Below are positions 8,891 through 53,161 of a DNA stretch of 64,000 nucleotides, piece by piece (positions within the stretch are counted from its first letter, which is position 1; each line of letters begins with the position of its first letter). Source of the stretch: Acidobacteriota bacterium. GTDB taxonomy: Bacteria; Acidobacteriota; Vicinamibacteria; Vicinamibacterales; SCN-69-37. Position numbers and translations under genes: made by a program. The DNA lies in the NCBI GenBank assembly GCA_020853395.1, contig JADYYY010000011.1, positions 62,001-126,000 of the forward strand, in the 5' to 3' direction. Below the pieces are notes generated by a model. It was given only the letters and a program-made list of their open reading frames with translations. It was not told the origin of the DNA and made no database searches.

Positions 8891-9834
8891 CGTCGCCGGC
8901 CGGCGGCGAGCGCCGCGATCGGCCGGCCTGGGACATCGATCGCCTCGTCGCCGCACTGCGTCCGGGACGATCCGGCGTGGGCGCCGCGCCCGAGCTGCGC
9001 GGCGTCGACGAGCCGCTGCCCTCGCGGGCGGCCGTGACCCACGTCCTCGACGGGCTGCGCGCCGCGCTCTTTCCGATGCACTTCGGCGACGCGGATCTCA
9101 CGGAGGCCGGGCTGGACCGGTTCGTGAGCCGGACGCTCGACACGACGCTCGCCGCGCTGCGCGATCAGGTGTGCCGCGAACTGCGCGGCGCGGCGCGCCG
9201 CGCGGGCGCCGATGCCGCCGATCACGACGCGCGCGCCAGCGACATCGTGCGCGCGTTCGCCGGCGAGCTGCCGGTCGTGCGGGCGCTGCTCGAAAGCGAT
9301 CTCGTGGCGGCCTACCGCGGCGACCCCGCGGCCAAGCACATCGACGAGATCCTGCTGTGCTATCCGGGCGTCACGGCCGTCGTGCACTACCGTCTCGCAC
9401 ACGTGCTCGATCGGCTCGGCGCGCCGCTCATCGCCCGCATGATCTCGGACATCGCGCACTCGGAGACCGCCGTGGACATCCATCCCGGCGCGACGATCGG
9501 CGCCAGCTTCTTCATCGACCACGGCACGGGCGTGGTCATCGGCGAAACCGCGGTCGTCGGCGAGCGGGTGCGGCTGTACCAAGCCGTGACCCTCGGCGCC
9601 AAGCGCTTCGAAGTGGACGCGCACGGCGCGCTCGTCAAGGGCGTCCCGCGCCATCCCGTGGTCGAGGACGACGTGGTGATCTACGCGGGGGCGACGATCC
9701 TCGGACGCGTGACGATCGGGAAAGGCTCGACGATCGGCGGCAACGTCTGGCTCACGCGCAGCGTACCGCCCGGCAGCCAGATCACGCAGGCGCTGGCGAG
9801 AAGCGACGTCTTCGACGCGGGAGCGGGGATTTGA
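8887..9834 (+). CDS. cysE: serine O-acetyltransferase
   Basis: The 315-residue protein acetylates L-serine with acetyl-CoA, supplying the substrate of the adjacent CysK. The C-terminal half is a left-handed beta-helix of hexapeptide repeats, with [20 protein letters not shown] and [20 protein letters not shown] as the catalytic core (family histidines in D-I-H-P-G and D-H-G-T-G). The N-terminal 170 residues are helical and longer than in E. coli CysE, as in the EpsC-type branch. Its ATG overlaps the cysK stop (ATGA). The usual C-terminal I-P-A-tail for CysK binding is replaced by F-D-A-G-A-G-I, which still ends in isoleucine as CysK docking requires. Confidence 0.95.
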
Positions 9835-9925
9835 AAGGGCAAAGGGCAAAGGGCAGAGGGCAAAGGTGAAGGGGAAAGGGAAAAGGAAGGGGAAAGGGGA
9901 AAGGGAAAAGGGAAAAGGGAAAGGC
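9834..9925 (+). repeat. polypurine dispersed repeat (copy 1, intergenic)
   Basis: About 90 bases of almost pure A/G on the top strand follow the cysE stop directly, built from GGGCAAA, GGGCAGA and GGGGAAA units. A second copy with the same order of units lies on the bottom strand at 21236-21325, inside ligD. Both begin with GGGCAAAGGGCAGAGGGC and then change to GGGGAAAGGG units, so they are copies of one element and not chance runs. It separates cysE from the next gene and might act in termination or form triplex DNA; neither is shown. Confidence 0.85.
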
Positions 9926-9933
9926 CAAACAAC

Positions 9934-20244: not shown

Positions 20245-22336
20245 TCAGCGCCGCGAGGTCCACCGGTTTCGCCGTGCGGAAGGCCGTCCAGAGATCGCCG
20301 GCCGCGCGGAATCGGGCCGGCGCCGTCTCGATCGTGAAGTCGCGCGGATCGACGCCGCGCTCGACCTCGTTCCAGGTGAGCGGCGTCGAGACGCCGGCGT
20401 ACTCGCTCGCGCGGGCCGAGTAGGCGGTCGCGAGCGTCTTGCCCAGGATGTTCTGCAGGAAGTCGACGTAGACCGTGCCGTGCGGGCGGCTGCGCACGGC
20501 GCGCACGACGGTCGCGGCCTTCGGGTGTTCGTCCGCCACCATCGTCGCGATCATGCGACCCAGCAGTTGGCCCGTGTCGTAGGTGGTCGCGGCCGGCAGC
20601 GGGATGTAGATGTGCATCCCGCTCGCGCCCGACGTCTTCGGCCAGGCCGGAATACGGAAGCGATCGAGGACGTCCTTGACCCAGCGCGCGACGTCGAGCA
20701 CGCGCGCGAACGTCGCGCCGTCGCCCGGGTCGAGATCGATCGCGGCGTAGTCCATGTGCAGCGGATCGGCGACCCTGGAGAACCACGGGTCCTGGGAGAT
20801 CGCCGCGATTTGCGCCATGTAGAGGAGCGTCGTGAGCGACCCGCCGATCAACCGATCGCGAGGCCCTTCTTCGGTGATCGGATCGACGCCGGCTGGCAGC
20901 ACCGCGCGCCGAACGCCCTGCGGGACGTCTTCGGGATGGCGTTGCTGATAGAACGCCGGCCCGTCGACACCGTTCGGAAACCGCCTCATCACGAGCGGCC
21001 GATCGTCGACCGCCGGCAGCAGCATCGGCGCGACCTCCGCGTAGTAACGAAGCAGGTCCCCCTTGGTGAGGCCGGCCTTCGGCCAGAACACCTTGCGGAG
21101 GTTCGTGACGCGGAGCAGGTCGCCATTCGGCAGCGCGATCTCGCCGTCTTTGCCTGACGCCTCCAGCGCCGTCAGTTGATCGATCACCGGTCCTGTGCCG
21201 GTCCCGACCTCGCGCCGGTTCCGATGACGCGGTGGCCCGCTTCCCTTTGCCTTTTCCCCTTTCCCCTCCCTTTCCCCTTCCCCCTTTACCTTTGCCCTTT
21301 GCCCTCTGCCCTTTGCCCTTCTTCGTTCGCGTCGCACCGACGTCGCCTCTTTGTCTTCGCGCATCCCGAGATAGACCGGCTGCCGGAGCAGCCCGTCCGA
21401 CGTCCATTCCGTGAACCGGACTTCGGCGACGAGATCGGGACGCACCCAGTGCGCGCGCTCCGCCGTGCGGACGCGATCGGCGAACGGGCTCTCGCGAGTC
21501 TCGCGATCGCGGAGCAGCCGGCCGACGCGCACGAGCTCGGCCTGATCGAACCCCGTGCCCACGCTGCCCGCCCAGCGCAGGCGCGCATCGTCGTAGTAGC
21601 CGACCAGCAGCGCGCCGAAGTGCGCCCGCGACTCGCGCGGCTCGGTCCAGCCGCCGACGACGAATTCCTGCTGCTCGAGCAGCTTGAGCTTGCGCCAGGC
21701 CGGCGTGCGCTTGCCGCTCTGGTAGATCGAGTCGCCGTCCTTGACGATGAGGCCTTCCCAGCCGTCGCGGCGGGCGCGCTCGAGGAGCGCGTGGCCGTCG
21801 TCGGCCGCGAGCTCGCTCAGCCGCACCCAGCGGCGCTGCCGCGCGTCCGGCCGGACCCTCGCCTGGAGCCGGAGCCGGCGGGCCGCCAGCGGATCGGATC
21901 GCAGGTCTTCGTCTCCGTCGCGCAGCAGGTCGAACGCGATCAGCGCCGTTGGCTGAAGACGTTCGGCGCGTTCGATCTCGGCCGGCGACGTCAAGTGAAT
22001 CCGCTGCTGGATGTGCTGGAAGCCGAGCGGCGTGCCGGTCCGGTCGACGGCGACGATCTCCGCGTCGAGCAGTACCGGACCGGGAAGCCTCCGTGCCATC
22101 GCGGCCAGCGTGCGGACGATGCCGGGGAACTGGACGTGCTTCTCGCGGCCGTTGCGCGAGTAGAGCGCCACCACAGGATCGGCGCCCTTTCGCGCCGGCG
22201 GGCGCACGTCCACGAGCGCGCGAATGCCGTCGTACTTCGGCTCGTAGACGAGGCCGGGCTGCGCGAGGGGCGGCGCCGCGAGCGAGGCGAGCATCGGACG
22301 GATGGCCGCCGGTTCCGCGCGCCAGCGGGAGGGCAT
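20234..22336 (-). CDS. ligD: ATP-dependent DNA ligase D (ligase and polymerase domains)
   Basis: The 700-residue protein is the non-homologous end-joining ligase. The adenylation domain comes first, with the nucleotidyl lysine K34 in YEPKYDGIRA and motif IV EGLIVKDGDSIY near 194. An OB-fold domain follows to about residue 325 and the primase/polymerase domain spans about 400-690 (LDLDPGDGATF carries the D-x-D metal site; KTSGASGMHIYIPL). The 3'-phosphoesterase domain of larger LigD proteins is absent. Residues 338-367 are an Arg/Lys/Gly tract encoded by a polypurine repeat that also occurs at 9834. Divergent from ku. Confidence 0.95.
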   Translation of the reverse strand: MPSRWRAEPAAIRPMLASLAAPPLAQPGLVYEPKYDGIRALVDVRPPARKGADPVVALYSRNGREKHVQFPGIVRTLAAMARRLPGPVLLDAEIVAVDRTGTPLGFQHIQQRIHLTSPAEIERAERLQPTALIAFDLLRDGDEDLRSDPLAARRLRLQARVRPDARQRRWVRLSELAADDGHALLERARRDGWEGLIVKDGDSIYQSGKRTPAWRKLKLLEQQEFVVGGWTEPRESRAHFGALLVGYYDDARLRWAGSVGTGFDQAELVRVGRLLRDRETRESPFADRVRTAERAHWVRPDLVAEVRFTEWTSDGLLRQPVYLGMREDKEATSVRRERRRAKGRGQRAKVKGEGEREGKGEKAKGSGPPRHRNRREVGTGTGPVIDQLTALEASGKDGEIALPNGDLLRVTNLRKVFWPKAGLTKGDLLRYYAEVAPMLLPAVDDRPLVMRRFPNGVDGPAFYQQRHPEDVPQGVRRAVLPAGVDPITEEGPRDRLIGGSLTTLLYMAQIAAISQDPWFSRVADPLHMDYAAIDLDPGDGATFARVLDVARWVKDVLDRFRIPAWPKTSGASGMHIYIPLPAATTYDTGQLLGRMIATMVADEHPKAATVVRAVRSRPHGTVYVDFLQNILGKTLATAYSARASEYAGVSTPLTWNEVERGVDPRDFTIETAPARFRAAGDLWTAFRTAKPVDLAALTSR
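21236..21325 (-). repeat. polypurine dispersed repeat (copy 2, inside ligD)
   Basis: On the ligD coding strand this is about 90 bases of A/G with the same unit order as the copy at 9834-9925. Its length keeps the ligD frame open. It encodes only Arg, Lys, Gly, Glu, Ala, Gln and Val residues between the ligase and polymerase domains, where a flexible basic linker is tolerated. Confidence 0.85.
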
Positions 22337-38593: not shown

Positions 38594-38683
38594 TTCACCT
38601 GCAGCACCGAGCGCGAGGACTGGGCGACGCCGCGTTTCGCCGTATGGCGCGCGGACGGCGGTCACGTCTCGCCGTGGCGCGCG

Positions 38684-38784
38684 GGCAACGGCACGTCGCA
38701 TGGGAGCGGGCGGCGCCACGTCGCATGTCGGCGGGCGACGCCACGTCGCATGCGGGCGGGCGACGCCACGTCGCATGGGGGCAC
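38684..38784 (+). repeat. 25-base tandem repeat, four units
   Basis: The core CACGTCGCATG occurs at 38692, 38717, 38742 and 38767, exactly 25 bases apart, in units of the form GCCACGTCGCATGNGGGCGGGCGAC with slight variation. It ends 26 bases before tRNA-Arg. No reading frame uses it convincingly. Confidence 0.88.
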
Positions 38785-38810: not shown

Positions 38811-38887
38811 GCGCCCGTAGCTCAGCCGGATAGAGCACCGGCCTTCTAAGCCGGGGGTCGCAGGTTCGAGTCCTGCCGGGCGCGCCA
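38811..38887 (+). tRNA. tRNA-Arg (TCT)
   Basis: The acceptor stem pairs GCGCCCG with CGGGCGC, with discriminator G and an encoded CCA. The D arm is GCTCAGCCGGATAGAGC, the anticodon stem CCGGC/GCCGG holds loop CTTCTAA with anticodon TCT, and the T arm is GCAGG-TTCGAGT-CCTGC. A recombinase relic begins 39 bases after its 3' end, so this tRNA was probably the integration site of a mobile element. Confidence 0.97.
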
Positions 38888-51937: not shown

Positions 51938-52444
51938 ATGCGAATGACCGAGCTGTTGATTGCGGCAGTGGAGCGCGAGGCGCCCCGCACACGCCGCGTG
52001 TTGGAACAGGTGCCTGTCGGACGCGACGACTGGCGTCCGCACGAGAAGTCCATGCCGCTCGGCCGTCTGGCCGGAACGGTCGCGACCATGCCGTCGTGGA
52101 TCAACCTCGTGCTCGAGCAGGACGAGCTCGATCTCACGCCGCCACCTGGGCAGGGACAGTACCATCCGACGCCGACGGACGCGCTGGCATCGACGCACGA
52201 CGCGCTCGTCGAGAAGGCGCTCGGCGCGCTGGCGGCCACGAACGACGACCATCTGATGACGACCACGTGGCGGCTGCGCGCCATGGGACAGATCGTCATG
52301 GAGGAGCTGCGGCACATCGTGCTCCTCGACACGATCAGCCACCTGTCGCACCACCGCGGGCAGTTGACCGTGTACCTGCGGCTGCTCGGCCGGACGGTCC
52401 CCTCCGTCTACGGGCCCAGCGCCGACGATCCGCGGTTTCTCTGA
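51938..52444 (+). CDS. DinB-family four-helix protein
   Basis: This 168-residue protein shows the DinB/YfiT-like fold. Candidate metal ligands are the histidines in RHIVLLDTISHLSHHRGQLT, the last helix motif H-x-x-x-H-R-G-Q being typical, while the N-terminal ligand histidine appears replaced in the G-R-L-A-G-T-V-A segment. Family members are often metal-dependent thiol transferases or of unknown function. GAGAGGAGCC precedes the ATG. Its stop lies directly before the 98-base tandem repeat. Confidence 0.87.
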   Translation: MRMTELLIAAVEREAPRTRRVLEQVPVGRDDWRPHEKSMPLGRLAGTVATMPSWINLVLEQDELDLTPPPGQGQYHPTPTDALASTHDALVEKALGALAATNDDHLMTTTWRLRAMGQIVMEELRHIVLLDTISHLSHHRGQLTVYLRLLGRTVPSVYGPSADDPRFL

Positions 52445-52448
52445 ATTG

Positions 52449-52895
52449 GATCCGGGGGGCTTCGCCCCCGCGGACCCCCCTACGCGCTCACTCGCGGGGG
52501 CCCCACGATCCCCGCGCCGGTCGCGCGGGCTCGCTTCGCCGCTTCTGATCCGGGGGGCTTCGCCCCCGCGGGCCCCCCGACGCGCTCACTGGCGGGGGCC
52601 CCACGATCCCCGCGCCGGTCGCGGGCTCGCTTCGCTCGCTTTTGATCCGGGGGGCTTTGCCCCCGCGGACCCCCCGACGCGCTCACTCGCGGGGGCCCCA
52701 TGATCCCCGCGCCGGTCGGGCGGGCTCGCTTCGCTCGCTTTTGATCCGGGGGGCTTCGCTGCCGCGGGCCCCCCGACGCGCTCACTGGCGGAGACCCCAT
52801 GATCCCCGCGCCGGTCGGGCGGGCTCGCTTCGCTCGCTTTTGATCCGGGGGGCTTCGCTGCCGCTGCCGCGGACGCGCTCACTGCGTCTGCGTTC
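52449..52895. repeat. 98-base hairpin-rich tandem repeat, about 4.5 units
   Basis: Units start with GATCCGGGGGGCTTCG at 52449, 52547, 52644, 52743 and 52842, so the period is 97-99 bases; the last unit is truncated. Each unit holds a GGGGGC/GCCCCC hairpin with a short TTC loop, a second G-run/C-run pair, and a GCTCGCTTCGCTCGC inverted motif. Units differ by single bases, for example CCCC replaced by CTGC in the last two. It fills the gap between the convergent dinB-type and small acidic protein genes. Open frames within it encode repetitive Pro/Ser/Ala peptides and are not genes. Confidence 0.93.
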
Positions 52896-52903
52896 GCGTG
52901 GCG

Positions 52904-53161
52904 TCAGGAGATGACGCCGCCTTTGTCATCGACCTTCTCGGGTTCGTCGTCGAATCCCGGGCCGGGGCCGCGCGTGTCGCTGACGTCGTCTTCGAGCGCG
53001 CCCTCGTGCTCGAGGCCGGCTTGTCGTTGCGCCTCCCTGAGCACGTCGTCGCGATCTTCGGGAGCTACGCGAGCCAGGATTCCGTGGATCGCCGCGCCGT
53101 CGGCGCCGTCGCGCATCATCTTGGCCAGTTCTCGCACGAGCTGCTCATGGCGGTCGGTCAT
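52904..53161 (-). CDS. small acidic protein of unknown function
   Basis: The 85-residue protein has a helical N-terminal half (HEQLVRELAKMMRDGADGAA, EDRDDVLREAQRQ) and an acidic, Gly/Asp/Glu-rich disordered tail. The start is the ATG at 53161 with GGAG-rich sequence before it. The family is not recognised. It ends next to the tandem repeat. Confidence 0.6.
   Translation of the reverse strand: MTDRHEQLVRELAKMMRDGADGAAIHGILARVAPEDRDDVLREAQRQAGLEHEGALEDDVSDTRGPGPGFDDEPEKVDDKGGVIS

Follow-up and report, generated by a model that had tools for sequence, protein, structure and literature searches.

With a probability of about 80%, the tandem array described here arose by local multiplication of one copy of a mobile, non-coding repeat that is dispersed in the Vicinamibacterales and resembles the REP/BIME elements. 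The array was found in a window of 64,000 nucleotides (the whole stretch of DNA that was analysed) from an Acidobacteriota genome. The REP/BIME-like profile is drawn from the observations that copies are dispersed, that those of one genome are near-identical, that five orthologous places in relatives lack them and that their left ends lie near gene ends.

The array consists of four full units and a 42-nt partial unit (52449-52883), on which sequence reading, TRF, a repeat finder and unit splitting agree. An earlier first-pass annotation had reported near-identical units of about 98 nt between convergent genes, spanning 52449 to 52895; sequence reading, TRF and the repeat finder confirm the units, their setting and the start, but the array stops at 52883 and position 52895 falls in the flank. 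TRF reports a period of 99 with 4.4 copies and 92% matches, and gives a slightly higher score to a period of 196 nt (713 against 702 for 99). All units lie on the plus strand. Unit 1 (52449-52546, 98 nt) starts 4 nt past the TGA stop of the upstream gene and is matched by our covariance model at 52448-52543 (70 bits). TRF and unit splitting delimit unit 2 (52547-52643, 97 nt; model match 52546-52640, 68 bits), unit 3 (52644-52742, 99 nt; model match 52643-52739, 80 bits) and unit 5 (52842-52883), which is 3'-truncated past 42 nt. Unit 4 (52743-52841, 99 nt; model match 52742-52838, 61 bits) has a broken first hairpin. The core pattern of the array occurs three times in the 64-kb window and in none of 100 shuffles.

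The single-base differences between units that had been noted before are present: units 1 and 3 differ from units 2 and 4 at two spots (GCGGAC/GCGGGC and CACTCGC/CACTGGC). So is the change common to the last two copies that was said to weaken the first hairpin, namely GCCCCC to GCTGCC in units 4 and 5, which breaks the first stem. Given the alternation (1=3, 2=4) together with the score of the double period, we infer duplication of a two-unit block, and by the same alternation the array looks like a product of local duplication. The unit lengths of 98 and 97 nt are not multiples of three, which argues against a coding role for open reading frames crossing the array.

Upstream lies a gene of the DinB family (51944-52444, plus strand; PF05163 by Pfam), for which the best protein matches reach at most 53% identity. 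The convergent downstream ORF (52904-53161, minus strand, 85 aa) is weakly supported as a gene, having no Pfam match. The right flank of the array (52884-52936, plus strand) contains a hairpin, GGCGTC-AGGAGAT-GACGCC, and is also present at another copy in the same genome (G000:C11:21116, locus L002). This flank, with a hairpin of its own, may be a module rather than transduced host DNA; on its origin, comparison of the downstream ORF with relatives gave weak matches alone. The two stretches (L002 1501-1693 and window 52743-52936) lie 93 kb apart on one contig and agree over one unit, one partial unit and some 50 nt of right flank; their left flanks are unlike each other.

Across the family the unit measures about 90-100 nt and comprises H1, the left hairpin, then H2, a hairpin in two steps with a near-invariant core (GCGGGGRCCCC...CCCCGC), and in many subfamilies H3, a right hairpin; in the subfamily of the window H3 forms no Watson-Crick hairpin. 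The stem with a TTC loop and a G run that had been described earlier is present as a G6/C5 stem. The supposed GCTCGC palindrome turns out to be a direct repeat (GCTCGC-TTC-GCTCGC), and neither strand of the array contains a G-quadruplex motif, a structure that had been put forward for checking. Single window units fold no better than dinucleotide shuffles (z from -0.6 to -1.1 in three foldings), their energy being unremarkable because the DNA is so rich in G+C. The evidence for structure, and with it for the hairpin formation proposed in the first-pass annotation, comes from covariation and not from energy.

In an alignment of 30 copies made with MAFFT (A1; 48 unit-like matches less 11 partial or unclear ones and 7 more), 13 of 27 base pairs have changes on both sides, the structure having been chosen from this same set. 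A second alignment (A2) holds 68 distinct copies, and here both-side changes affect 21 of the 27 pairs; these copies came from a core-only pattern scan and were aligned by fitting to the model, 100 of the 120 stretches together and the other 20 separately, a procedure that favours the core helix and the structure. The both-side changes fill 114 cells, against 29.5 +- 4.1 after shuffling and at most 35 with the strands slid. H1 and the inner H2 stem are paired nearly always in A2, the outer H2 stem in 73-89% of the cells and H3 in 63-83%. Given both-side changes in so many pairs, the folded form is, judging by covariation, under constraint, be it as RNA or as single-stranded DNA. Some copies (at L112, L177, L160 and L149) have an extra hairpin between H2 and H3, so that the hairpins appear modular. 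In genome G030 a second G+C-rich hairpin repeat (L264, L265; 99% identical over 88 nt) directly adjoins copies of the family.

The possibility that copies occur only in this array fails. The covariance model, for which 30 copies from the window genome and its relatives were used, has 12 matches in the own genome of the window. They fall at 7 places and include another tandem array, of three copies, on contig C19; a DNA search finds the window array and four further clear places. DNA matches occur in 18 of 60 relatives (the own genome counted), and the exact core pattern in 40 of the 162 genomes of the order, often at gene ends, against 0 of 162 for a reversed-pattern control; the other 122 genomes have no core. 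Copy numbers of the core range widely (112 in G405, 77 in G015, 67 in G333, 66 in G059, 62 in G406, 61 in G030 and 8 in the own genome). Throughout these genomes the copies fall equally on both strands, and the order-wide core scan also finds tandem copies in G333, G334 and G340.

In a sample of the phylum the core is seen in 8 of 42 members of the order against 2 of 354 genomes outside it, where the control also matches 2. With strict filters the covariance model matches 7 of 297 genomes in the phylum sample, all within the order. Among the matches listed, 75 of the 80 with a named genome are titled Acidobacteria or bear Vicinamibacter- names; of the other five only one, titled Acidimicrobiia (L100), also fits the covariance model, and it is apparently a contig of G058, which is placed in the order. 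Within the window genome's own family the core is present in 3 of 14 genomes. Over 81 nt, unit 1 and a copy in G015, which belongs to a different family, are 98% identical, a likeness that hints at horizontal transfer of the repeat. Nothing similar was found in the plasmid and phage DNA searched, viral contigs scanned for the core pattern gave no match, and an Rfam scan of the array gave none above the gathering score. None of the open-licence papers searched is about this repeat by its title or the start of its abstract.

Signs of movement come from comparisons between and within genomes. In G030 the repeat occupies 39 different places, with 87-nt cores that are 94-100% identical and flanks that are unrelated. 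Three comparisons of relatives (about 74-90% identity) yield five orthologous places at which one genome has the repeat and its counterpart lacks it: the copy at L199 6598-6696 is absent in L050 and L130, the one at L199 5320-5418 is absent in L130, those at L130 3371-3468 and 5611-5708 are both absent in L199, and the one at L034 1495-1593 is absent in L178 (a further pair, L035/L107, was left out of this count as its upstream part failed to align). The empty places are not clean: they hold 13-60 nt or more of unlike sequence, and the junctions are inexact. Two species, moreover, have both kept the copy that follows their RNase P RNA gene (L127 and L192), as would be expected of a functional element and against a mobile one. 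At L199 5320-7876 four copies crowd into 2.6 kb together with a 29-nt sub-repeat; this hot spot lies partly within a predicted gene.

Gene context was analysed with a home-made caller based on codon usage instead of a standard one; of 125 sites, 104 had sufficient flank, and the removal of those at an edge or overlapping a called gene left 95 for classification. These comprise 42 codirectional-antisense, 23 convergent, 18 codirectional-sense and 12 divergent sites. Where a gene reads into the left end, its stop lies within -6 to 3 nt of that end in 30 of 41 cases; an end placed at random within that gap would give 5.0 +- 2.0. At right ends this pinning is absent, with 2 of 65 stops against 10.2 expected. 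The pinned stops are TAG (16), TAA (11) and TGA (3), against 204 TGA, 138 TAG and 48 TAA in the comparison set. RNA genes follow the same tendency: five tRNA genes end 1-4 nt before the left end of a copy, and copies stand directly behind the two orthologous RNase P RNA genes mentioned above. Two other left ends precede the start of a tRNA gene, by 5 and 11 nt. Common forms of the left-end sequence are YTAR, CTCAC and GATCC, and right ends often read CTA.

The location rules bring the repeat close to known REPs, which according to PMC3733652 adjoin the 3' ends of ORFs and supply TAG stops from their termini; like the elements outlined there, it is intergenic, dispersed, palindromic and clustered. 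It might thus be argued that we deal with a true RAYT-dependent REP/BIME family whose transposase has been lost or missed, a reading that we hold possible but doubtful. PMC6006769 further describes Y1 transposases of class 3 in Acidobacteria, with atypical secondary structures in high copy number (about 600 in Solibacter), and some Y1 gene (PF01797) is found in 17 of the 27 carrier genomes searched. No such gene was found in the other 10 carriers (G000, the own genome; G015, G030, G026, G034, G058, G059, G334, G405 and G406), though gaps in metagenome-assembled genomes and a possible blindness of PF01797 to class 3 leave room for a missed protein. Three of these (G405, G406, G059) make up the highest-copy genus, whereas 10 of 12 non-carrier genomes do have a Y1 gene. 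Around 41 Y1 loci the repeat occurs in the flanks of a single one, at more than 1 kb from the Y1 gene.

The repeat also differs in build. REP/BIME palindromes are tagged by GTAG or CGTC, whereas our repeat has a YTAR-like left end and no GTAG; its unit is 90-100 nt long with two or three covarying hairpins, and its copies do not stand beside a RAYT gene. The class 3 hairpins share with it the host phylum and the high copy number, but flanking of a class 3 gene and the CnGA foot, both given as their traits in PMC6006769, are not shown for the repeat; this comparison was made by description and not by sequence. IS200/IS605-derived (PATE) elements have an orientation bias relative to the replication fork, whereas 53 of 103 copies of the repeat lie with positive local GC skew (p 0.95), a weak proxy. 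Orientation by skew was accordingly rejected as a sign of HUH transposition. With GTAG missing and no Y1/RAYT found in 10 of 27 carriers, the repeat is not a proven REP. A reverse transcriptase (PF00078) was considered as another engine and rejected: it occurs in 7 of 24 genomes (5 of 12 carriers, 2 of 12 non-carriers) and was not found in the own genome, G333, G405, G406, G354, G334 and G034.

A functional element of transcript 3' ends, a terminator or mRNA stabiliser selected at gene ends, would also explain the covarying structure and the left ends pinned in sense to protein stops and to tRNA and RNase P RNA 3' ends; the array would then be a strong terminator between convergent genes. The array region has terminator-like sites on its plus strand alone, 5 of them where 0.8 are expected. 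They lie where units 2-4 end and immediately past the array, and in units 2-4 a T run follows the G+C-rich hairpin. This is not a trait of the family: 132 copies hold 12 such signals in sense and 5 in antisense, only slightly more than the 7.7 and 1.5 of shuffles. Besides, at 54 of the 95 sites the left end has no sense gene, antisense outnumbers sense among the codirectional sites (42 against 18) and most members of the order (122 of 162) are without the core. We consider this explanation unlikely. Both the one-sided sites and the family-wide counts fail to support the bidirectional transcription block suggested in the first-pass annotation, whose interpretation is partly supported overall. 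From the sequence, the array could act as a weak terminator in one direction, on the DinB-family transcript, and nothing shows a special job for the window array.

Correia and ERIC elements are short, non-autonomous intergenic elements of about 100-170 nt. RU/MITE-type elements of this size are likewise treated in PMC2759123 and PMC2229807, and the short intergenic form of the repeat is like theirs. The stops at the pinned sites, of which 27 of 30 are TAG or TAA, and the frequent YTAR and CTA at left and right ends would fit a DDE-transposon MITE that targets TA or YTAR. Against it, no matching terminal inverted repeats of useful length were seen in the repeat (short CTAGGC-like ends exist in one genome and not in another), and no target-site duplication was seen by eye, left and right junctions of the full copies in G030 being uncorrelated. 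This origin is quite unlikely in our judgement.

The two ends of the repeat behave differently, left ends being constant and right ends variable. In the surroundings of 134 copies, a truncated next unit with an intact left end follows at 11 independent places, and at 4 a right-end remnant comes before the copy. Of 39 copies in G030, 14 have the whole of a long palindrome that follows H3 (module B, present in several genomes), 10 lose it within 5 nt, and in 15 it is decayed or cut at an intermediate point. Module B was rejected as an independent repeat, with 39 of 41 distinct stretches near a core and the other 2 beside an H3-like hairpin, a count made on sequence biased to core neighbourhoods. 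The asymmetry supports, without proving, copying from one end; unequal recombination and decay can also give it. A rolling-circle-like or single-strand copying with a fixed start at H1 and a variable stop at the right, at work in genomes where neither a Y1 transposase nor a reverse transcriptase is detectable, would make arrays with a 3'-truncated end the run-on of one event and not later duplications; we think this very improbable. That the array is an ordinary local tandem repeat of a G+C-rich genome, unrelated to a mobile family, can practically be dismissed: the window does contain other G+C-rich tandem repeats, but dispersed homologues with covariation and zero control matches refute it.

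Taking the array as a multiplied copy of a REP/BIME-like mobile repeat, copies would be spread by an enzyme acting in trans and would land beside gene ends, where their left ends are indeed pinned to stop codons or RNA 3' ends. They would be near-identical within a genome and differ between genomes, as one high-copy genome illustrates. The window array probably began as one insertion behind the DinB-family gene and then multiplied head to tail through duplication of the two-unit block, leaving the 1=3, 2=4 pattern. An effect on transcription would be a side effect, strongest, if any, on transcripts of the DinB-family gene.

The family is a large one, with a covarying form of two to three hairpins, in a poorly studied order. 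Should the repeat truly move without a RAYT, REP-like repeats and HUH transposases would not always go together; G030 and the genus of G405, G406 and G059 are the genomes in which to seek the missing enzyme. For annotation, the family accounts for false ORFs over such arrays and for stop codons that are supplied by the repeat.

Some minor features of the window may be added. Four 25-nt direct repeats (87% alike) at 38681-38782 end 29 nt before a tRNA-Arg gene (38811-38887), and two heptamer arrays, AAAGGGC and CCCTTTG, are located at 9834-9929 and 21243-21321. The tetramer CTAG occurs 9 times against about 52 expected from dinucleotides; in other genomes the left end of the repeat often has CTAG or a near form of it.
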